Source: Ahniella affigens | GTDB taxonomy: Bacteria > Pseudomonadota > Gammaproteobacteria > Xanthomonadales > Ahniellaceae | Direction: 5' to 3' | Assembly (NCBI RefSeq): GCF_003015185.1 | Contig: NZ_CP027860.1 | Span: forward strand, 372,001-436,000 | DNA length: 64,000 nt | Shown: one piece after another, positions 19,675 through 34,029 of the stretch | Layout: each line of letters starts with the position of its first letter | Position numbering within the stretch: the first letter of the stretch is position 1 | Notes under the pieces: model-generated | What the model saw: only the letters and a program-made list of their open reading frames with translations | Told to the model about the DNA's origin: nothing | The model's database searches: none | Translations under genes and position numbers: made by a program

Positions 19675-21205
<1,531 letters not shown>

Positions 21206-21229
21206 CGGCCCAGCGCCGCTTGTGTTCGG

Positions 21230-21257
21230 AAAAACGCCCCTCGCGGGCGTTTTTTTT
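21230..21257 (+). terminator. Rho-independent terminator after lpdA
   Basis: AACGCCC pairs with GGGCGTT around a five-base loop, extended by A/T pairs, and is followed by an uninterrupted run of Ts to 21257. It is a textbook intrinsic terminator 25 bp after the lpdA stop. Confidence 0.92.
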
Positions 21258-21383
21258 GGCCCCAAAGAAGCTCATCGCGTTCAATGGCGTGGCCGCTTGG
21301 CTAGCGCTGCATGTTCGGTTTGTCGTTCCGGCGCATTGTCATCGATGCCGCGCGATTGGTCGCGCTACCGAGAGTCAATAGCC

Positions 21384-22811
21384 ATGTCCAAGCAGCGCAT
21401 CGCACCCCGGCCTGATCGCGCCGTGCCAGTGTCCCGTTCCGGCGCACAGAGCTGGTCAACCCGAATCGGCCTCGTCGACGATTCGATGCGGGCTGAGTCG
21501 ATCGGAACCTGGTATCGCGCGGCGATGTCTTGGATTCTGGTTAGTCTTGCTGGGCTATGCCTCGGCAGTATTGGTAGTGCGGCCAATGCGGTGGAGCGGG
21601 AGGACGATGGCCTGCAAGCACTAGCGATTCGCTATTACGCCGACAAATACCGAATCGATCCGGAGCGCGCCCGCGCGCGTTTGGAAATTCAAGATCGCGC
21701 TGCTGGCATTGACGATGCGTTGATTGCTGAACTCGGCGATGACTATGCAGGCATCTGGTACGACCCCAATAAGGCAGGACGCCTGCAGATTGGTCTCACG
21801 CGTGCCGGATCGGCGCGCCTCGCCGCGCTGCAGCGCGTGGTCGATGCGTTTGGCCTGACCGCGGACACGGATTGGGTGTCGGTCAATCGAACCGAACGGG
21901 ACTTGACGGAACTGCGCGATGCACTGCGACCCGACTTGCAGGATCTGCTCAGCACGGCTCGCGCAAACATGGGCTATGACACGCGCCGCAACAGCGTCGT
22001 CGTTCGCGCGGTCACCCGGGTCACACCAACCGAAGAGGCGACCTTGCGCAGCTTGGCCGGCATTCCCGGCGTGATCGTGCAGCGCGTTCCTGTCGACACG
22101 TTCGCCGCAACGTATCAAGGTTGCTGGATCACCGCGTGCAACCCGCCGCTCCGTGGGGGGCGAGGGGTGATTGCTGACGGGTTTTGTACCGGTGCGTTCA
22201 TCGCCTACACGCCGAACAGTCCGCACCAATGGCTGCTGACTGCCGGCCACTGTATGTATTTCGAGGCCATCGTCGGCGACGGCTATGCCTGGCATGCGCG
22301 CAACGAGGCCATGAAGACGCATCTCATCAGCGCGTATGTGAACTACACCTTTGCCGGGCCGAACGGGCGCGATGCCGGCATCATCTGGCTCCAGCCCAGC
22401 AGCTATTGGGCGACGCCAGCACCCATCGCTGCTGTCGTCGTCAAAATCTCCGACGACACGACCTACAACCCGTCCTACGAGATTCGCCAGACTTCGTTCA
22501 GTGCGATCGGTCAGATCCTGTGTCGAACCGGACGCATGACCGGCACAGACTGCGCGGAAGTCAGCCTGCTCGGCGCGGATGAGACGGCCAAAGGTCCGAA
22601 CGGTCTCTACTATGGCGTCCGAAACATGGGTGAAGTAGATGCCTGCGGTGCCCAGGGCGGCGACAGTGGCGGGCCGCTTTACAAGAAACATCGCGCGTAC
22701 GGGATCTATTCCGGCCGTGTGAATGCCGGTCCCGCATTCTGCTGGGAGTTTTACCAGGGCGTTCGGGATGCCGAAAAGGCGCTCGGCGTCAAAGTCCTGT
22801 TGGCACCTTGA
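21384..22811 (+). CDS. Secreted S1 (trypsin-like) serine protease with propeptide
   Basis: Up to 475 residues. A hydrophobic signal segment (MSWILVSLAGLCLGSIGSAANA) is followed by a ~190-residue pro-region and a chymotrypsin-fold domain. The catalytic triad is visible: His in LLTAGHC, Asp in GRDAGIIW and Ser in GGDSGGP; paired cysteines support a secreted enzyme. The pattern recalls alpha-lytic protease or streptogrisin-type enzymes common in Lysobacter relatives. The start is uncertain. ATGs at 21384, 21486 and 21525 are in frame; 21486 gives the most normal signal peptide, 21384 has a weak GAGAG upstream. It is preceded by the lpdA terminator and so is transcribed separately. Confidence 0.85.
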   Translation: MSKQRIAPRPDRAVPVSRSGAQSWSTRIGLVDDSMRAESIGTWYRAAMSWILVSLAGLCLGSIGSAANAVEREDDGLQALAIRYYADKYRIDPERARARLEIQDRAAGIDDALIAELGDDYAGIWYDPNKAGRLQIGLTRAGSARLAALQRVVDAFGLTADTDWVSVNRTERDLTELRDALRPDLQDLLSTARANMGYDTRRNSVVVRAVTRVTPTEEATLRSLAGIPGVIVQRVPVDTFAATYQGCWITACNPPLRGGRGVIADGFCTGAFIAYTPNSPHQWLLTAGHCMYFEAIVGDGYAWHARNEAMKTHLISAYVNYTFAGPNGRDAGIIWLQPSSYWATPAPIAAVVVKISDDTTYNPSYEIRQTSFSAIGQILCRTGRMTGTDCAEVSLLGADETAKGPNGLYYGVRNMGEVDACGAQGGDSGGPLYKKHRAYGIYSGRVNAGPAFCWEFYQGVRDAEKALGVKVLLAP

Positions 22812-22990: not shown

Positions 22991-23563
22991 ATGAACGCAC
23001 CGTTGGAGCCGTCGACTGCCGAACTCCTGCACGCGATTCGCAACGGCAGCGAGCCGGCGAGGCACGCGCTGTATCAGCGATTCCTGCCGATCCTGAGCCG
23101 TTGGGCGCATGGTCGTTTGCCCCGCGGCGCGCGTGACGTGGCCGACACTGACGACTTGGTGCAAGTCAGTCTGATGCGCACCTTGAAGCATTTGGATGTC
23201 ATCGAGTCGGAGCGCACGGGCAGCTTTCTGGCCTATCTGCGGCAAATACTATTGAACGAAGTGCGCGCCGAAATGCGCAAGCACCGAGTGCGCGGCGAGC
23301 AAGTGGATGTGGCGGATCTCGATCTGGTCGATGCCGCATCGTCGCCGGTCGAGCAATTGGTCGGCCGGGAACGCATGCGTGCCTATGAAGCCGCCTTGGC
23401 AAAATTGAATCAACGCCAGCAGGAACTGATCCTGATGCGTTTGGAACTCGGGATGAGTTACCCCGAAATTGCTTTGGAGACGGGCAGCGACCCCGATGCC
23501 GTGCGGATGATGGTCACGCGCGCGCTGAAATCCCTGACCGAGCAACTGGCGGATTGCCGTTGA
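22991..23563 (+). CDS. ECF-type RNA polymerase sigma factor
   Basis: 190 residues with the two ECF domains: region 2 (about 25-95, core DTDDLVQVSLMRTL) and region 4 (about 134-175, LNQRQQELILMRLELGMSY then an HTH, PEIALETGSDPDAVRMMVTRAL). In the usual core, DLVQ is followed by an acidic residue; here it is Val-Ser. The kinase gene starts 3 bp after the stop, and no anti-sigma factor is present. That organisation matches the kinase-linked ECF43 class, where phosphorylation of the sigma factor replaces anti-sigma control; membership is inference. A TACAAT -10-like box lies at 22958-22963. I use the ATG at 22991; the frame is open upstream but carries no sigma sequence. Confidence 0.88.
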   Translation: MNAPLEPSTAELLHAIRNGSEPARHALYQRFLPILSRWAHGRLPRGARDVADTDDLVQVSLMRTLKHLDVIESERTGSFLAYLRQILLNEVRAEMRKHRVRGEQVDVADLDLVDAASSPVEQLVGRERMRAYEAALAKLNQRQQELILMRLELGMSYPEIALETGSDPDAVRMMVTRALKSLTEQLADCR

Positions 23564-23566
23564 GTC

Positions 23567-25186
23567 ATGAACGCGAATCAACGCGCTGGCGCAGGTCGAA
23601 CATCGAGTGCGGTTTCAGACGAGCCCACCACCGAGCCACTCTCTAACGCACTTTCGGCAATCGCGGATCAGGCGCCGGTCGCATGGGATCTGCTGGCCCA
23701 GACCAGCCTCCAGCCGGGTGAACTCGAAGGGCTGCGGCTGATCGAGGATGTCGCCCGCGCATTTCGCGGGCAAGGCATGCCTGGTGAGACCGAGACCAGA
23801 CCGGTCGCGTTTACCTGGAATGGTCTGCAAGTGACTGAGCGACTCGGCGCTGGCAGTTATGGGGACGTCTGGCGAGCGTTTGACCCGTGGCTCGAACGCG
23901 AGGTCGCGCTCAAGCTGTTTCGCGGGCACGCCAGTGCAGGTTTGGATGAAGCGCGGCGTCTGGCGCGGCTCCGCCATCACAATGTATTGAGCGTGTTGGG
24001 CTGTGCCATTGCCGATGATCGCGCCGGCCTTTGGAGCGAGCTGATCGAAGGCAACACCTTGGCCGACCTCATCACCCGCGGCGGCCCGCTGAGCGCGGCC
24101 GAGACCATGCGCGTCGGTCGAGATCTGGCGCAGGCGTTGGTCGCCGTGCATGGCGCGGGTCTCGTGCATGGCGACATCAAAGCATCCAACGTCATGCGCG
24201 AGCGTGGTGGCCGCATCGTCCTGATGGACTTTGGGGCGGGTGGCGAAGCGCGACTGCTCGCCGCGCAGCGCGTGCGTTCGGGTACCTTGGCGTACTTGGC
24301 GCCGGAAGTGCTCGATGGCGCGCCGGCCTCGCAGCAGAGTGATCTGTTCGCGTTGATCGTGTTGCTGCATCTCTTGTATCGCGGGCATTTGCCGTGGTCG
24401 GCAGATTCGGCGCTGGAGTTGCGGCGGGCACAAAACGTGCCGCCCCAACTGCTACCCAAACAAGGCGATCCCATCGAACAGCATTTGTGTCGGATGATCG
24501 CGCAAGGCTTGTCGGTAGACCCGCGAAAACGAGTCGGTGACGCACAAAGCCTGGCTCGTTGCTTGCAAATTCAGACCAACATGGCAACGCCGGTCGCACC
24601 GATTCGCCGCCACCTGGGGCTGGCGATTGCGGCGAGTGCGGTACTGGCTTTAGGCATATTCGGATGGATGTTGCGGCCTGATTGGCGCACCGACGTCAAG
24701 TTTGTGCGACTAGGCGAATCGGGTCCGGTGAGCTTGGAACCTGATGCCAGCGTCCGTGCCGGCGATCGCTTGCGTCTACAGTTCGAGAGCAATCGCCAAG
24801 TCTACGCCTACGTGCTGAATGAAGATGATCAAGGCATCGCGACCGTCCTCTTTCCGTTGTCAGATCGCGATAATCCGCTGCCTGCAGCCAAGGCTCTGGA
24901 ATTGCCAGGTGGTGTCGATTCGGGGCTTGCCTGGGAAGTCGGTGCAAGTGGCGGGCAGGAAGAGTTCTTAATTGTGGCGAGCGCCGAGCCGTTGACCAAT
25001 CTGGAACAAGCTCTGGCTGACTGGCGGCGGGCGCGCGGCGTGCAGCGCTCGGTGGACCAAATCGTGACCGTTGCGCCGCCGGAATTGAGTGGTGCGCAAC
25101 TGAATGCCCTGGTGCGATCGCTGGAGGGTGACGTTCGTCCGGAGTCTGTCCAGAAATGGCAGTTTCGATTCACCCACACGCGCTGA
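23567..25186 (+). CDS. Transmembrane Ser/Thr protein kinase with DUF4384-like periplasmic domain
   Basis: 539 residues. A Hanks-type kinase domain spans about 88-335: Gly loop LGAGSYGDVW, Lys116 in VALKLF, catalytic loop HGDIKASN (201-208), DFG (221-223) and APE (245-247), all needed for activity. The loop has Gly before the catalytic Asp, making it a non-RD kinase. One membrane helix (about 350-369) leads to a C-terminal domain (about 385-500, with VRAGDRLRLQFESNRQVYAYVL and TVLFPLSDRDNPLP) that resembles DUF4384, known beside kinases and caspase-like proteins. The topology is cytoplasmic kinase, periplasmic sensor. It starts 3 bp after the sigma gene and precedes the CHAT gene by 52 bp. Confidence 0.9.
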   Translation: MNANQRAGAGRTSSAVSDEPTTEPLSNALSAIADQAPVAWDLLAQTSLQPGELEGLRLIEDVARAFRGQGMPGETETRPVAFTWNGLQVTERLGAGSYGDVWRAFDPWLEREVALKLFRGHASAGLDEARRLARLRHHNVLSVLGCAIADDRAGLWSELIEGNTLADLITRGGPLSAAETMRVGRDLAQALVAVHGAGLVHGDIKASNVMRERGGRIVLMDFGAGGEARLLAAQRVRSGTLAYLAPEVLDGAPASQQSDLFALIVLLHLLYRGHLPWSADSALELRRAQNVPPQLLPKQGDPIEQHLCRMIAQGLSVDPRKRVGDAQSLARCLQIQTNMATPVAPIRRHLGLAIAASAVLALGIFGWMLRPDWRTDVKFVRLGESGPVSLEPDASVRAGDRLRLQFESNRQVYAYVLNEDDQGIATVLFPLSDRDNPLPAAKALELPGGVDSGLAWEVGASGGQEEFLIVASAEPLTNLEQALADWRRARGVQRSVDQIVTVAPPELSGAQLNALVRSLEGDVRPESVQKWQFRFTHTR

Positions 25187-25226
25187 GCGGGCGGTGCTGC
25201 CGTATCCTGTGCGGCATCCACGGTCT

Positions 25227-25241
25227 GGAGCCTGCATCTTG
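25227..25241 (+). promoter_or_regulatory. Ribosome site and TTG start of the CHAT gene
   Basis: GGAG at 25227-25230 lies eight bases before TTG at 25239-25241. This start gives a clean signal peptide (MRTPCLTVGLWFVALLTA...), whereas the longer frame from 25104 overlaps the kinase gene and buries that segment. I therefore take TTG as the start. Confidence 0.75.
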
Positions 25242-28200
25242 AGAACACCTTGTCTGACGGTTGGGCTTTGGTTCGTCGCGCTGCTGACAGCGTCCATGCT
25301 GGCCGACGCAGCTGCGCCAAACTCGGCCATTCCCGAGCGATTCGTGGCGCTGATTCAGGATGACCGCCCAAGTGACGCCAGGCGTCTGGCCGAGCGCGAA
25401 TACCAAGACTTGGCGCCCGACGCCAGCATGCTGCAGCGATGTGAGGCCTTGGAGTTGATCATGGTGCTATTCGGCTTCGAGCCGGGCGCACCGGATGATC
25501 TGAGCGCCCGTTATGCCACGCAGTCTTTATCTTGCTGGCAGTCTCTGCCTGGTGATCGCGCACGCGCATTTGCGGTGGCGCGCGAGCTCCGTCAGGCACG
25601 CCGACTGATCATCGAAGGCAAGTATCAAGAAGGCTTCGCTTTGGAAGCAGCACGCCGGCAGGAATTCGACGCCCTGCAACGCCACCTGCCGGCGTTGCAG
25701 CAATCCATGTGCTGGGACGCAATCGGCAATGCCGCACAATGGCGGGATGAGTTGGAGGCGGCCGCCCAGGCATTTCGGAAGGCCACCGATGTGCTGGACG
25801 GCGGGGCCAGCGCTGAGCGCATCCAGCAGGCGCAGATGCTTGGCGTCTTAGCGTTGCGGCTCGAACGGGCCGGGCAACTGGCCGAGGCGATGGCTGCGAT
25901 CGATCGCGCCGACACATTGATGGCGCCGCCGTTTCCGGCGCCAAAATTTGTTCGGGCGACGCTCCATGGCCGGCGCGCAACGATCGCGTTCTTTGCGAAC
26001 CGTTGGGATCAAGCGCTGACGCACGCCGATGCTGCAATCGCGTTGTTCCGGCCGCTGGGACCGAGCGTCAATGAGCAACTTGCATTGAATCTGGTGACAC
26101 GCTCGAATGCCCTGAAGAAAAGCGGCCGACAAGCCGATGCGTTGCCGCCACTGATTGAGGCAATCGCATTGGAGCGCGCTTTGCCCGATCAGGATCTGAC
26201 CGGACTCGCAGCGCACATGAATCAACTGGGCACGCTGCAGTTTGAGCTCAACCAGATCGAAGCGGCAGAAGCGAGTTTCAACGAGTCCTTGGCGCTCTAT
26301 CGGGAAGCGCTGGGTGCGGGCAAGGAACTGGGTTATCCCGCCGCCGCGAACCTGGCGGCGGTGCTGCTCGCCCGTGGCAATACCCGGGATGCCCGTGCGC
26401 GCATGGATACGTATGTCGCCCGCGCCGAGCAACAATTGGGGCCGGACAACGAGCGTCTGCCCGAACTCCTACTGGAGCAGGGCAACTATGCCTATGCCGA
26501 CCACGACTATGCCGCGGCGGAGGCCATTCACCAGCGTGCGCTCCGTTTGCTGCCGAAGGTCGAGGGCGTTCTGGCCGCGCAACGCTACTGGCATACGCGA
26601 AGTCTCGCGCGCGCGCAGCATGGGCTCGGCAATGATCGCGCGGCGTTTGCGACCGCAGTCAACGCCGAACGCCAGCGCCAGCAACTGTTGCGCAATGTCG
26701 GCAGTCATCTGGGGAGCGACCATGCGATCGCCTTGCAGCAAAAGCTGACCGGCACCCTCGACATGATCCATGCCTTAGTGGCTGCTGATCCAGACCCAAA
26801 GCGCATCGAAATCGCCTGGGATCTCGAGATCGCAGCGCGCCAGAGCGTCGCCCGCCTCATCGGCGCGCGTCTGCAGACGGCGCGACAAACCGCCGATGCG
26901 ACGACGCAATCGCTCTGGTTAGCGTATGAGCAGGCCAGCGATGCCTACACCAACGCCACTCTATCGCCCGCCAGCGACCAAGTCGCAATGGCGCGTCGCC
27001 GCGAGGCGCTGGATCAAGCCGAGCGCGCGCTCGCCGCGCAGGTGCGAGCGGTGGCGCAGGCGTTGGAGCCGGGCGCCGATCGGGTCGCCGCATTGAAGTC
27101 GGCACTGCCCCGTGGCAGCGCGCTGATCGCGTATGTGCAGTTCACGCAAGATCCCTGGCAGCCCGAAAACACCGGTCGAGCGGCGTCCGAGGGTCGCTAC
27201 TACGCTTATGTTCTGAGTGCATCCGAACCGGCAACGCTGACCGATCTTGGTTCCGGCACGCGCATCGCGGCGGCCGTGGGCCGCTGGCAGGAATCCTTGC
27301 GCGACCCACGCAGCAGCGCGCTCGAACTCAAACAAGCGGGGCGGGCGCTCCGGCGCTTGGTTCTCGATCCGCTCTCGATTCCGACGCAATTATCGCGGCA
27401 CTACATTGTTCCGGCCGGCGATTTGTATCGGGTCAGTTGGCTGCCCTTGCCGGTGGCGGACGAACGCTCAGCGCAACGTTTGGTGGACACCGGGCCTGAT
27501 GTGCAATTGCTCGACAGCGAACGCGAATTGCGTGTGGCTGCCGGCACTCAAGTCGCCGATTCCTTACTGTTGGTTGGTGCCCCTGCGCTCGCGAATCGCG
27601 AACGTCATCTCACGGGATGCGGGCTGGCAGAACTGCCCGGCGCATCGGCCGAAATTGATGCGCTGAGCAACTTGTGGCGGCCCGAGAAAGCGTCACCCAG
27701 CATGTCGGTCCTGGTTGGCAAAGCGGCCATGGAGCCGGCAGTGCGGCGTGCCATGCAGGCAAGCCGGCTGCTGCATTTCGCCACCCATACCTTGAGCACT
27801 CAGGCTTGCGAGCCGTTGTTGGCGAGTCGATCGGTCAAGCTCATTGATACGACAGCAACGCCGTTGCGACCAGAAGATCGCGGGCGTGGCGCGCTGGTGC
27901 TCAGCACGCCAACCAAGCCCGCGCCAAAAATGAATCCGGCGCGTACCGATGGTTTGCTGACGCCGGAAGAAGTCGTCACGATGGATCTTTCCGAGGTGCA
28001 ATCGGTGGTCTTGTCGGCATGCGACACGGGTGCCGGGGCGGTGACGCCGGAAGAAGGCGCGTTCGGACTTCGCCGCGCCTTTCGACTGGCAGGTGCGCGC
28101 AGCGTGGTCATGAGTCTTTGGCCGATCGACGATGCCGCCACCGCCGCATTGATGCAGGCCTATTACCGCGAACGTCTGCAACGCAGGGCCGAGGTGCCGA

Positions 28201-28310
28201 CCGCGCTTAGAGCGGCGGCTTTAGCGGTGATCGCTGAGCGCACCGCGGCCGGTGAATCGGTGCACCCTTACTACTGGGCCGGATTTGTCGCCAGCGGGGA
28301 CTGGCGCTGA
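25239..28310 (+). CDS. Exported TPR-CHAT protein (caspase-like peptidase candidate)
   Basis: 1023 residues from the TTG start. A signal peptide (about 1-25, ending MLADAAA) suggests export to the periplasm. Residues ~90-560 are helical repeats of TPR type (for example AAHMNQLGTLQFELNQIEAA and LLEQGNYAYADHDYAAAEAI). The C-terminal ~330 residues are a CHAT domain. Its predicted catalytic dyad is intact: His850 in LHFATHT and Cys928 in VVLSACDTGAG, followed by GLRRAFRLAGARSVVMSLW. CHAT proteins include separase-like and caspase-like proteases, for example the CRISPR-associated Csx29/TPR-CHAT. Here it is the third gene after a sigma factor and a membrane kinase. Substrates are unknown. A hairpin repeat begins 17 bp after the stop. 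Confidence 0.88.
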   Translation: MRTPCLTVGLWFVALLTASMLADAAAPNSAIPERFVALIQDDRPSDARRLAEREYQDLAPDASMLQRCEALELIMVLFGFEPGAPDDLSARYATQSLSCWQSLPGDRARAFAVARELRQARRLIIEGKYQEGFALEAARRQEFDALQRHLPALQQSMCWDAIGNAAQWRDELEAAAQAFRKATDVLDGGASAERIQQAQMLGVLALRLERAGQLAEAMAAIDRADTLMAPPFPAPKFVRATLHGRRATIAFFANRWDQALTHADAAIALFRPLGPSVNEQLALNLVTRSNALKKSGRQADALPPLIEAIALERALPDQDLTGLAAHMNQLGTLQFELNQIEAAEASFNESLALYREALGAGKELGYPAAANLAAVLLARGNTRDARARMDTYVARAEQQLGPDNERLPELLLEQGNYAYADHDYAAAEAIHQRALRLLPKVEGVLAAQRYWHTRSLARAQHGLGNDRAAFATAVNAERQRQQLLRNVGSHLGSDHAIALQQKLTGTLDMIHALVAADPDPKRIEIAWDLEIAARQSVARLIGARLQTARQTADATTQSLWLAYEQASDAYTNATLSPASDQVAMARRREALDQAERALAAQVRAVAQALEPGADRVAALKSALPRGSALIAYVQFTQDPWQPENTGRAASEGRYYAYVLSASEPATLTDLGSGTRIAAAVGRWQESLRDPRSSALELKQAGRALRRLVLDPLSIPTQLSRHYIVPAGDLYRVSWLPLPVADERSAQRLVDTGPDVQLLDSERELRVAAGTQVADSLLLVGAPALANRERHLTGCGLAELPGASAEIDALSNLWRPEKASPSMSVLVGKAAMEPAVRRAMQASRLLHFATHTLSTQACEPLLASRSVKLIDTTATPLRPEDRGRGALVLSTPTKPAPKMNPARTDGLLTPEEVVTMDLSEVQSVVLSACDTGAGAVTPEEGAFGLRRAFRLAGARSVVMSLWPIDDAATAALMQAYYRERLQRRAEVPTALRAAALAVIAERTAAGESVHPYYWAGFVASGDWR

Positions 28311-28472: not shown

Positions 28473-29882
28473 ATGTCGCCATTGAAATCCGCCTGTCTGA
28501 TGTTTGGTCTCTTGCTCGCGTCGCGAGCCGAAGCCGACTGGCTCAACTTGAATGTGCTGCGTCCGTCTGATCTGCCCGCTGCCACCAGCAATACGAACTT
28601 CGGCCAGAGCGTGGCGGCGGACTATGGCGACGATGGGCGCATCCGCGCGCTGTATGTCGGTTCACCCAACGAGACGGCAGTGTTCAACAATGTCAGCTAC
28701 CCAGGCAACGGCGCTGTCTATGTGTTGATCCCGAATGGCAATGCCTGGGTCGTGCACACGCGTTTGGTGCTCGCGGGTTATCTCCAGGCCAATGCCCATT
28801 TTGGTGCCGCCATCGCGGTGCATCGCGGTTCCATCATCATTGGCGCTCCGGATTTCGACAACGAAGGCCATCCGAATAGTGGTCGGGTGCACTTTCTTCA
28901 GGATTATCGCTGGAACAGCGCCAGTCCAACACCGCTACTCATTGGCCTATCCAGTCGCGGCACAACACTCGATAACTCACGCCTGGGCGCCAGTGTCGCG
29001 GTCGCTGGCGGCGGCTTGAATACGGTCTCTGGCAACGCACCGAACAGCGATGGCAGCTGGTTTGCCGCTGGTGCGCCGGGAATGGTCGGCGCTGGCTGTG
29101 TGCTCGTCGATCACTTTGGTGCCAACTATAACTTTGACCTCGGTGACCGGGCGGATATCGGCAGTGTTTGCTCAGGCAACGCCGGGGATGCACTGGGTGC
29201 GAGCGTGGCCGTGCAGGCGCCCGGCAATAATCAAGTGATTCTGCTGACCGGAGCACCCGGGACGATGCAGAACGGTCAGGCGGCTGCGGGCGCGGCACAC
29301 GTCTACATTCGGGTGAATGGTGTGCTGACGCTGATCGATACGCTGTTGCCGCCAAACCCGCAACTGCTCGATTCGTTCGGCACCAGCGTGGGCTTGCAGC
29401 CGCCCCTGGCCTACGTCGGCGGCACCGGTCGAATCCTGCAAGGGGTGGGGCGCACGGGTTCAGTCAGTGTGTTCGAGCCGGCCGCTATTCTCGGCTATGA
29501 CTTTGCGACGGAAGTGTTTCCAACGGCACCGCGCGCCGCCGGTGACCTATGCGGCGCCTCGCTGTATCCCGACTTGCTCGATACCGAACGATTTGCAATG
29601 GGTTGTCCTGGTGCCGATGGCAGCGTTGCCAATCAGGGGGTACTGCGCGTGCTCCAGAAATTGACCTTCATGGGTATCCCGATTTGGGTGAATCAGCGCC
29701 TGGCGGTGGAGGACAGTCCGCACGGCGCCGATGACCTGGGGCGCAGCGTGGTGCTGGTTAATGGCCGTGCGTACGCGGGCGCGCCGCTTGCCGACGACAG
29801 CGTAGGCGCCAACAACGGTGCAGTCTACGAATTTGCCGACTCATCCACGCTGCCGGAAGTGTTTGCGGACAGCTTTGAATAG
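28473..29882 (+). CDS. Secreted FG-GAP/integrin-like beta-propeller protein
   Basis: 469 residues. A signal peptide (MSPLKSACLMFGLLLASRAEA) is followed by repeats with the FG-GAP flavour: NTNFGQSVAADYGDDG, NAHFGAAIAVHRGSIIIGAPD, SRLGASVAVAGG and DALGASVAVQAPGNNQVIL. These build a propeller like the integrin alpha headpiece and usually bind calcium or other proteins; no enzymatic motif was seen. The protein ends ...EVFADSFE, a short acidic tail similar to the ...LLRDGFE end of the protein at 32500. It follows the CHAT operon after 162 bp containing repeat copy A, so it may be a separate unit. Confidence 0.75.
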   Translation: MSPLKSACLMFGLLLASRAEADWLNLNVLRPSDLPAATSNTNFGQSVAADYGDDGRIRALYVGSPNETAVFNNVSYPGNGAVYVLIPNGNAWVVHTRLVLAGYLQANAHFGAAIAVHRGSIIIGAPDFDNEGHPNSGRVHFLQDYRWNSASPTPLLIGLSSRGTTLDNSRLGASVAVAGGGLNTVSGNAPNSDGSWFAAGAPGMVGAGCVLVDHFGANYNFDLGDRADIGSVCSGNAGDALGASVAVQAPGNNQVILLTGAPGTMQNGQAAAGAAHVYIRVNGVLTLIDTLLPPNPQLLDSFGTSVGLQPPLAYVGGTGRILQGVGRTGSVSVFEPAAILGYDFATEVFPTAPRAAGDLCGASLYPDLLDTERFAMGCPGADGSVANQGVLRVLQKLTFMGIPIWVNQRLAVEDSPHGADDLGRSVVLVNGRAYAGAPLADDSVGANNGAVYEFADSSTLPEVFADSFE

Positions 29883-32499: not shown

Positions 32500-34029
32500 A
32501 TGCCAGCTCAAAAAACTCGCATTCTTGCGACTCTCGCATTCCTGGTCTTGCTGCTGTTCTCGCCCTTAGGATTCAGTAACGGCCAACTCGACACCAGCTT
32601 CGCGGGCGGCAAAACCAGTACCTTTTTCCCGATCGATGCGACCGGCCAACGCGGCGCGACGCGTGTCGTCAAAACGCTCGTGCAGGCCGACAACAAGGTG
32701 CTGCTGATCAGCAACACGCCCACCCCGTTTGGCTCGCAGTTCTCCGGCAACAGCCAGATCGGCATCACGCGATTGAACGCGGATGGCACCCCGGATGCGA
32801 GTTATGGCGCCAACGGTCAGCTCTTGCTGGATGCCGGTGTTGACTTCGAGGTCGAAGCCGTTGATGCGGCATTGCGAATCGATGGTGCGGTGCTCGTTCT
32901 AGGAACGATGTACGGCCCGTTCAATGAAAGCGACATGGCGGTTTGGGCCGTGCGGCCAAATGGGCAGCGAGACCTCGCATTTGCGACGGGTGGCCTGCTC
33001 CGCATCCGACGTGGCGGTACGCCTTCGGATACTGCCGGGGCGATCGAGCCTTATGATCTCAGTTTGAATCGATTCATGATCGCTGGCACGATTCGCGATG
33101 CGCCGGGCGACAATCGGAATCTGATGCACGTGATCTTGTTTGGCGATAGCGGCACGCTCTGCGCCGTCGCTGAGTGCGGCAATGTCGTCGGCGGCAATGT
33201 CGGTCAGCCCAATCAGTGGTACATGCTCCGGTTCTTCCTCAACCTCGATGTGCAGGTGGCCGATCTCGCAGCTGAGCTCCGGCCCGAAGCCGCTGTTCCG
33301 CTGCGCGTTCGCACGTTGTTGCGACGTGCGATCCCCGATTCACAGGGCAACTTCGACACGGCGATCATTGCGACCTCCTTTCCATCGGCGACGAACGGCT
33401 ATGGTGTCGATCCAGAGTTCGACGGCGACGGTATACGCGAGTTCTTTTTCACCGCGCAGCCGGGGTTTCGACATAACACGGGCAATCGACTCGCCATTCA
33501 GCGGCAAGGCAGCACGTCGCGCCTGATTGCCGTCGGCTATTCCGCGAACGCATCCGATACCGATCCGTCCATCGGTGTCGCGGCGTTCGACCTGAATAGC
33601 GGCGCGAATGATCCCGGCTTCAACGCTGGTGTCCCGCTGAGCTTCGATTATGCCGCCGGCGCGATTCACGGTGATGCGTATGCGAGTGATGTCTTGCCAA
33701 CACCCGATGGCAAGCTCCTCATCGGCGGCGGTTACGAGTACGCCGGTTTCACGTTCGGTGATGCCGCGCTGGTCAGGCTCAATGCCAATGGCACCTTCGA
33801 CAACACGTTCGGCAGCTTGAGTGCGGCCTTGCCGGGTCGCGCTGGTTTTGGTCATACCTTGGCTGGTAGCGATCGCGACAACCGCCTCGATAGCATGGCG
33901 CTTGCTGCCGATGGTGAGCGGGTGGTTTTTGGTGGCTATGCCTATGCCAGCGACGATGGGAGTTACTTCGGCAGCGCGATGCGTGTCCGCTTGCATGCAG
34001 GCGACCTATTGCGCGACGGCTTCGAATAA
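32500..34029 (+). CDS. Secreted delta-60 repeat beta-propeller protein
   Basis: 509 residues. A signal peptide (MPAQKTRILATLAFLVLLLF) is followed by repeats of the delta-60 (DUF5122) type, recognised by the pattern N-D/N-G-x-x-D-x-x-F/Y-G: NADGTPDASYGANGQ, RPNGQRDLAFATGG, NANGTFDNTFG, and the opening GQLDTSFAGG. Such proteins are surface or secreted propellers of unknown function. The last residues (HAGDLLRDGFE) form a short acidic tail like that of the protein at 28473. It is convergent with the GAF-GGDEF gene; hairpin repeat copy B fills the gap. Confidence 0.8.
   Translation: MPAQKTRILATLAFLVLLLFSPLGFSNGQLDTSFAGGKTSTFFPIDATGQRGATRVVKTLVQADNKVLLISNTPTPFGSQFSGNSQIGITRLNADGTPDASYGANGQLLLDAGVDFEVEAVDAALRIDGAVLVLGTMYGPFNESDMAVWAVRPNGQRDLAFATGGLLRIRRGGTPSDTAGAIEPYDLSLNRFMIAGTIRDAPGDNRNLMHVILFGDSGTLCAVAECGNVVGGNVGQPNQWYMLRFFLNLDVQVADLAAELRPEAAVPLRVRTLLRRAIPDSQGNFDTAIIATSFPSATNGYGVDPEFDGDGIREFFFTAQPGFRHNTGNRLAIQRQGSTSRLIAVGYSANASDTDPSIGVAAFDLNSGANDPGFNAGVPLSFDYAAGAIHGDAYASDVLPTPDGKLLIGGGYEYAGFTFGDAALVRLNANGTFDNTFGSLSAALPGRAGFGHTLAGSDRDNRLDSMALAADGERVVFGGYAYASDDGSYFGSAMRVRLHAGDLLRDGFE

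Follow-up and report, generated by a model that had tools for sequence, protein, structure and literature searches.

The DNA analysed here (the window) is a 64,000-nucleotide stretch from Ahniella affigens, taken from assembly GCF_003015185.1, contig NZ_CP027860.1, positions 372,001-436,000 of the forward strand; gene coordinates refer to the window unless stated otherwise. It contains three consecutive plus-strand genes encoding, in this order, an extracytoplasmic function (ECF) sigma factor, a membrane kinase and a TPR-CHAT protein. According to open reading frames and translations, the gaps between them are 3 bp and 52 bp, as a previous reading of the sequence alone had reported. The sigma gene (22991..23563, ATG start) encodes P0001, of 190 amino acids, and was assigned from its reading frame, its translation and Pfam. 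It is followed by the gene of P0002 (23567..25186, ATG start), a membrane Hanks-type Ser/Thr kinase of 539 amino acids with a C-terminal DUF4384 domain, and by that of P0003 (25239..28310, TTG start), an apparently exported TPR-CHAT protein of 1023 amino acids. The TTG at 25239 was retained as the best start of the third gene: GGAG lies 8 bases upstream and the resulting N-terminus is signal-peptide-like.

Two Pfam domains of P0001, Sigma70_r2 and Sigma70_r4_2, exceeded their cut-offs, with no further Pfam domain outside regions 2 and 4. The score against PF07638 was a weak pass (26.1 bits, cut-off 21.1), a sigma factor of NATA type elsewhere in the same genome reaching 135.7 bits, and that against NCBIfam TIGR02984 (81 bits) was under the cut-off of 183.75. 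Identity with relatives having the same neighbours went up to 61%. Region 2.2 carries the motif D52-T53-D54-D55 (23144..23155, plus strand), which takes the form [DE]TxD in the family. Alignment revealed Thr at the Thr53 column and Asp at position 55 in 81 of 81 rows, and Asp or Glu at position 52 in 79 of 81; a second alignment, whose rows overlap with these 81, had Thr in all of its 58 rows. Residue 118, in the sigma2-sigma4 linker (Ser118, 23342..23344, plus strand), was Ser or Thr in 72 of the 81 rows and may or may not correspond to the linker phosphosite of EcfK (T106), at which Ser, Thr, Asp or Glu is characteristic of ECF43. Among six other sigma factors of the same genome, three had AED and three had ATS, PTA and TRA before LVHE, LIHD and LVNE; a Thr at the place of Thr53 occurred in one of these six (TRA, locus L014) and in one of nine weakly related sigma factors from the loci read. 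Judged from this conservation, Thr53 and Ser118 constitute two new candidate phosphosites.

For P0002, Pfam returned Pkinase (5e-34) and DUF4384 (2.6e-13). The kinase domain (residues 88-327, 23828..24547, plus strand, PF00069) has the motifs GSYG, ALK, HGDIKASN in the catalytic loop, DFG and APE, HGD replacing HRD. Hydropathy indicated one strong hydrophobic segment, assigned to a single transmembrane helix at approximately residues 350-368 (24614..24670, plus strand) and leaving 171 residues C-terminal to it. One clear membrane helix was likewise found in all 19 kinases considered (that of the window and 18 relatives), followed by 171 to 212 residues. The architecture given by the sequence-only reading for this protein was thus recovered from Pfam, motifs and hydropathy. 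In the AlphaFold model of the tail (predicted local distance difference test, pLDDT, 84.8), a beta sandwich is accompanied by helices and one loop falls below 50. The sandwich is the presumably periplasmic DUF4384 domain (residues 396-475, 24752..24991, plus strand), and the loop comprises residues 493-507 (25043..25087, plus strand), with a near-invariant Arg494 followed by Gly or Ser. A Foldseek search with the DUF4384 region gave nothing at an E-value of 0.001 or better, the highest Z-score being 8.3 for unrelated chains from which no function was inferred, and a PDB sequence search with a DUF4384 profile gave no match. The 6.12 Mb genome contains 73 Pkinase matches, mostly in open frames of 700-1000 amino acids and numerous by bacterial standards, and two DUF4384 matches. 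Elsewhere in the same order, DUF4384 was also seen fused to type VI secretion DotU (L110, L111, L115), to caspase (C14) domains (L106, L114, L121, L122) and to a peptidoglycan-binding domain (L107). Anti-phage defence was considered for the kinase and rejected, since the PD-T4-6 matches span the kinase domain only and neither sigma factor nor CHAT protein matches any PADLOC model.

P0003 matched the CHAT family PF12770 at 2e-50 (172 bits, cut-off 24) as well as TPR_12. A signal-peptide-like N-terminus, read by eye from hydropathy (approximately residues 1-24, 25239..25310), precedes a predicted TPR superhelix (approximately residues 31-690, 25329..27308), which was delimited from Pfam TPR_12, AlphaFold and structural matches. 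The caspase-like CHAT domain (residues 699-1021, 27333..28301) was assigned from PF12770 and from the matches to Csx29 and separase; all these features, like the catalytic residues, are on the plus strand. The dyad mentioned in the earlier reading is intact, with a putative catalytic His850 (27786..27788) kept in 27 of 27 aligned rows and a putative catalytic Cys928 (28020..28022) kept in 26, the remaining row being gapped. A similar N-terminal stretch, again judged by eye, occurred in all 15 linked CHAT proteins for which it could be assessed, that of the window included (in L119 the N-terminus is cut off), and the protein is apparently exported to the periplasm. The AlphaFold model (pLDDT 85.6, predicted template modelling score 0.87) was compared with solved structures. 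The highest Z-scores were those of Csx29/TPR-CHAT chains (25.6 for 7y9x_B and 8eey_B, the latter over 458 residues at 3.8 A), separases coming next with up to 23.7 (5fc3_B, 310 residues at 3.2 A); the predicted fold is therefore closest to Csx29 and separase. Foldseek placed the transmembrane anti-sigma factor DdvA at rank eight (8rot_A, E 9e-13, template modelling score 0.24). Sequence searches of the PDB returned annexin matches only, within the TPR part, for the protein alone; TPR-type proteins among the best 60 of 305 matches for the whole-protein profile; and separase only (E 0.11-0.16) for the CHAT domain profile.

The same genome holds a second complete set of sigma factor, DUF4384 kinase and TPR-CHAT protein (L019, C1 approximately 1786.9-1792.9 kb), to which its second DUF4384 gene belongs. 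Relatives of P0001 at an E-value of 1e-15 or better were found in 23 of 61 genomes, one of them its own, and 49 of the 53 match places listed were read, the other four being two places in the same genome and two fragments. A kinase stood directly behind the sigma gene at 44 of the 49 loci. The tail was of DUF4384 type at seven of them, six of which had a CHAT gene, and none of the other 42 had one. DUF4384 was then searched among 299 genomes of the order, where it occurred in 26, and 20 further stretches were read. This order-wide reading gave 18 sets of sigma factor and DUF4384 kinase, including that of the window and L019: CHAT was downstream on the same strand in 13 (in L109 after 2.2 kb) and on the other strand in three, and was first not seen in two, one of which (L113) revealed it approximately 5.4 kb further downstream once more sequence was read. 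A nineteenth DUF4384 kinase gene (L118) had no sigma gene directly beside it. The co-occurrence across Lysobacterales that the earlier reading had proposed to look for was thus found, the sets being mostly accompanied by CHAT rather than rarely adjacent. Since a second complete copy exists in the genome and the linkage is repeated in others, this neighbourhood is more than chance.

A wider contig scan, performed with a profile of 15 sigma factors from DUF4384-type sets, yielded 98 relatives, 80 loci of which were taken; these partly overlap with the loci read earlier (same contigs), so the two collections are not independent. The 80 loci came from Pseudomonadota (Tahibacter, Dokdonella, Marinicella, Wenzhouxiangella, Woeseia and many bins), Acidobacteriota, Eisenbacteria, Latescibacterota, Gemmatimonadota and one Acidimicrobiia bin, and the complete gene set recurred in Pseudomonadota (Lysobacterales and others), Acidobacteriota and Eisenbacteria. 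A kinase frame started at most 800 bases past the end of the sigma gene at 74 of the 80 loci, with a tail of DUF4384 type in 35, of TPR type in 27 and of another kind in 12. CHAT genes were counted at the 61 loci whose sequence extends 2.5 kb or more downstream. They were present in the locus read at 22 of 28 loci with a DUF4384-type kinase, and at none of 23 with a TPR tail, none of six with other tails and none of four without kinase (Fisher p 1e-10 for DUF4384 against other kinases, 22/28 and 0/29, in a test that ignores relatedness). The 19 loci left out comprised 7 of the 35 DUF4384-type, 4 of the 27 TPR-type, 6 of the 12 other and 2 of the 6 loci without kinase; among them, CHAT lay upstream in two of DUF4384 type and in one of the other kind, whose kinase is cut at a contig end. 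In an even draw over the phylum, the sigma factor (E 1e-20) was found in at least three of 398 genomes, all of this order and one being the genome itself; this is a lower bound, as at most eight candidates were scored per listed genome. Additional features were seen in individual sets: in L104 (2889-5841, the same as L128), the TPR-CHAT gene, which stands beside a sigma gene and a DUF4384 kinase gene, is split over two overlapping frames, through decay or a sequencing slip, and an extra long frame lies between kinase and CHAT in some sets (L151, 12292-14790; L113, 6952-10152, the latter of 1066 amino acids with a weak Calx-beta match).

The phosphorylation of an ECF sigma factor by a linked membrane kinase has been described for EcfK/PknS of Xanthomonas citri and EcfP/PknT of Vibrio parahaemolyticus (PMC13147305, PMC8999054). 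As in both pairs, the sigma gene of the window adjoins that of a membrane Hanks kinase. Phosphorylation there concerns region 2.2 and, for EcfK, also the linker, and the candidate sites proposed here fall in both regions. Sigma factors of group ECF43 are reported to have lost the acidic DAED motif and to be phosphorylated on a Thr at the third position (QTTA or STTA; PMC8999054, PMC13147305), EcfK retaining one acid (QATE; PMC13147305). In contrast, the acidic motif is kept here, as [DE]TxD, and its Thr is at the second position instead of the third. Membership of ECF43, the analogy on which the sequence-only reading had drawn, is consequently rejected on this feature, the acids of region 2.2 being retained (DTDD), despite the adjacent kinase. 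Besides ECF43, kinase linkage is a trait of groups ECF59, ECF61, ECF62, ECF217 and ECF283. Kinase-linked ECF groups that keep these acids may, according to PMC8999054, work differently and need study, and some of them have Ser or Thr in or around the motif. PknS itself has a periplasmic TPR tail which may restrain the kinase (PMC13147305). The window kinase differs in having a DUF4384 tail, the TPR being found on the separate CHAT protein.

Our preferred interpretation, to which we give a probability of about one half, is that the three genes form an envelope-to-gene signalling cassette in which the whole path leads from TPR-CHAT protein to kinase to sigma factor. The exported TPR-CHAT protein would be the periplasmic sensing partner of the membrane kinase, acting on or through DUF4384; the TPR module, which forms part of the tail in sister kinases, would thus be provided in trans. 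On the cytoplasmic side, the kinase domain would then phosphorylate the neighbouring sigma factor, most likely on Thr53 and/or the linker Ser118, a step modelled by analogy on EcfK and EcfP, and this would alter its binding to core RNA polymerase. As the acids of the motif are kept, phosphorylation could enhance or block core binding. The export of CHAT, the kinase-sigma reaction, the contact of CHAT with the kinase together with its direction, and the sign of phosphorylation are all inferred. Because CHAT was restricted to DUF4384-type kinases in the loci counted, the TPR-CHAT protein is most readily understood as a periplasmic partner of the kinase that replaces a TPR tail: with either a TPR tail or a DUF4384 tail and a mostly adjacent TPR-CHAT gene, the sensor would be split into two proteins in the latter case, and PknS would represent the unsplit form. 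In the signalling route outlined in the earlier reading, the ECF43 label is unsupported. A single pathway nonetheless appears likely because the genes recur together across phyla and CHAT is specific to DUF4384 kinases, and a periplasmic side to it is indicated by the kinase's one membrane helix and by the N-termini of the CHAT proteins, which resemble signal peptides.

Several observations weigh against this cassette, first as regards the place of CHAT in it. The 80 loci are enriched for DUF4384-type sets, since the sigma profile was built only from such sets, and the tail types of most loci were assigned with our own iterated profiles and not with Pfam. In the best tree, of 82 sigma factors, the DUF4384 state required 10 changes and the CHAT state 11; six independent pairs on well-supported branches differed in tail, with CHAT concordant in four to five and opposed in none, and the corresponding sign test stayed above 0.05 (median p 0.0625). 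The link between CHAT and DUF4384 is therefore consistent but not proven by this stricter test. Furthermore, no CHAT was seen in the stretch read at 6 of 28 DUF4384-type loci, so that the partner is not always adjacent. Among the 22 positive loci, CHAT was downstream on the same strand in 18, four of these genes being 1.9-5.4 kb past the kinase; it was on the opposite strand in three and upstream in one. An opposite-strand, separate unit in 3 of 22 loci, like the last position of CHAT in the set, would also agree with another explanation, in which the TPR-CHAT protein is the output, namely an exported caspase-like effector switched on by the sigma factor, with the kinase controlling the latter through its own DUF4384 sensor. 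CHAT domains are indeed listed among the effectors that bacterial defence systems use (PMC10907252); the conflict systems with CHAT and kinases of that paper were rejected as the same system, as the word sigma is absent from the passages concerned. If CHAT were merely a target of the sigma factor, its presence should not depend on the type of kinase tail, and a plain regulon member should not track that tail as CHAT does (22/28 against 0/29). The regions preceding the sigma genes yielded no shared promoter motif, the best two-box pair of 4-mers occurring in 7 of 16 regions and in 4 to 7 of them in ten shuffles, which says nothing either way about CHAT. This explanation is regarded as possible, although rather unlikely.

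On the sigma side, with the acids retained, charge need not come from phosphorylation, and 6 of the 80 sigma loci have no kinase directly downstream, two of them being at contig ends. Such data would also fit a separate control of the sigma factor, by transcription or by an unlinked anti-sigma factor, with kinase and CHAT acting on other targets: with its acidic region 2.2 motif, the sigma factor could bind core polymerase unmodified, and, in a genome with so many Pkinase matches (73), the kinase may have other substrates. However, the kinase is directly downstream at 74 of 80 loci, and without control of the sigma factor by the kinase it would be difficult to account for the invariance of a Thr within the core-binding motif. 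Separate control was judged quite unlikely.

A more specific mechanism can be based on the loop of the kinase tail. Within this low-confidence loop (pLDDT below 50), position 494 was Arg in 37 of 38 rows and the next residue Gly or Ser in 38 of 38, the surrounding sequence being variable. RG[VIA] occurred only once within the last 120 residues of nine other DUF4384 frames, in a caspase-DUF4384 protein. The CHAT protein might thus cut the periplasmic tail between Arg494 and Gly/Ser and in this way activate or inactivate the kinase. Separase, a close structural match, cleaves after Arg (PMC4357240, PMC4626109), but in the case of the Craspase CHAT proteases the residue before the cut is Ala, Leu or Met and never Arg according to PMC11106740. 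Moreover, the Arg-Gly motif was retained at five of six loci without CHAT, and the sole row lacking the Arg (L146) also came from a locus without CHAT. The presumed place of the Asp with which separase binds P1 Arg, counted on from the alignment with separase and the description in PMC4626109, is occupied by Ala969 here and is acidic in at most one of 27 rows, so that a preference for Arg is not predicted from it. The evidence on Arg-specific cleavage by CHAT is therefore mixed and such a specificity very doubtful, and gating of the kinase by a cut at Arg494 seems very unlikely. The broader proposal, in which an exported separase/Csx29-like protease, armed by its TPR superhelix, would gate the kinase through DUF4384 by docking at the Arg-Gly loop or by cutting it, whereupon the kinase would phosphorylate the invariant Thr of the otherwise intact [DE]TxD motif, is put forward as an unlikely suggestion. 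It leaves the cut site unspecified and overlaps both with the preferred interpretation and with gating by a cut at Arg494.

The association of a TPR-CHAT protein with ECF sigma control has a precedent in the Csx29-Csx30-CASP-sigma locus of type III-E CRISPR (Craspase), which likewise combines an ECF sigma factor and a TPR-CHAT protein of the same predicted fold in one locus. In Craspase, proteolysis by Csx29 reportedly takes place in the cytoplasm. The cleavage by Csx29 of Csx30, a sigma inhibitor, was proposed to free an ECF sigma factor, the protease being activated by target RNA bound to Cas7-11 (PMC10028731). Unlike in Craspase, the TPR-CHAT protein of the window looks exported, a kinase would serve as intermediate and no Cas gene is adjacent: neither Cas7-11 nor Csx30 was found beside the TPR-CHAT gene, in a comparison covering its neighbours in the window (sigma factor, kinase, trypsin-like and FG-GAP proteins). 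CHAT genes were also reported near ECF54 sigma factors without anti-sigma factor, with proteolysis proposed as the control (PMC8999054); the arrangement is similar here, except that the passage on ECF54 mentions no kinase. Orthocaspases as well as kinases have been described with DUF4384 (PMC6426788, PMC7475262). In orthocaspases it belongs to the same protein as the caspase fold, whereas here it is carried by the kinase and the caspase fold by a separate protein. The three-gene set itself was undescribed in the open-access literature searched (CHAT with sigma, kinase, ECF, operon). The earlier statement that no such pathway is described consequently stands for the set and has to be qualified for the control of ECF sigma factors by TPR-CHAT proteins, which is known (PMC10028731).

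The gene before the set encodes a trypsin-like protein (21156-22811) and the gene after it an FG-GAP protein (28473-29882); as the earlier reading had it, no anti-sigma gene accompanies the sigma gene among these two flanking genes, the only ones checked. The FG-GAP protein and another protein of the window (32500-34029) end in similar short C-terminal tails, ADSFE and RDGFE. The ending D[GS]FE occurred in 2 of 124 window frames of at least 150 amino acids and is possibly a C-terminal sorting signal.

At the genome level, eight CHAT matches were found, five of which have a Sigma70_r2 match on the same strand at 0.5-4.8 kb and a sixth on the other strand at 5.9 kb. Given 25 Sigma70_r2 matches in 6.12 Mb, the number expected within 6 kb is about 0.4 (binomial p 1.4e-5 for at least five, with a distance chosen post hoc), and exported CHAT proteins may be recurrent partners of several ECF systems in this genome. 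At two of these five places, L021 (4209-9909, C1 approximately 2663-2669 kb) and L025 (2290-6932, C1 approximately 1283-1288 kb), CHAT lies near a different ECF sigma factor and a one-helix protein of approximately 210 amino acids is also encoded, which is anti-sigma-like by eye and matches no Pfam family; in L021 an animal-haem-peroxidase-like gene stands in between. Directly upstream of the second complete set, L019 (10121-13203, C1 approximately 1793-1796 kb) carries a PF07638-type sigma factor with a TPR-tailed kinase. This sigma factor has NATA in region 2.2 (acids lost, as in ECF43), so that both forms stand adjacent.

Taken together, this recurrent gene set probably conveys an envelope signal to gene expression, and its make-up points to a route unlike the known ones in some details. 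For the switching of kinase-linked ECF sigma factors outside ECF43, the present family offers a clear candidate residue in Thr53, and relatives are present in named strains of Tahibacter and Dokdonella, Tahibacter aquaticus DSM 21667 and Dokdonella fugitiva being examples that carry the set. A bacterial caspase-fold protein would here be tied to kinase signalling through a modular swap of kinase tails. If protease gating were true, regulated proteolysis outside the cytoplasm would be coupled with phosphorylation of a sigma factor within it, and this in three phyla or more.

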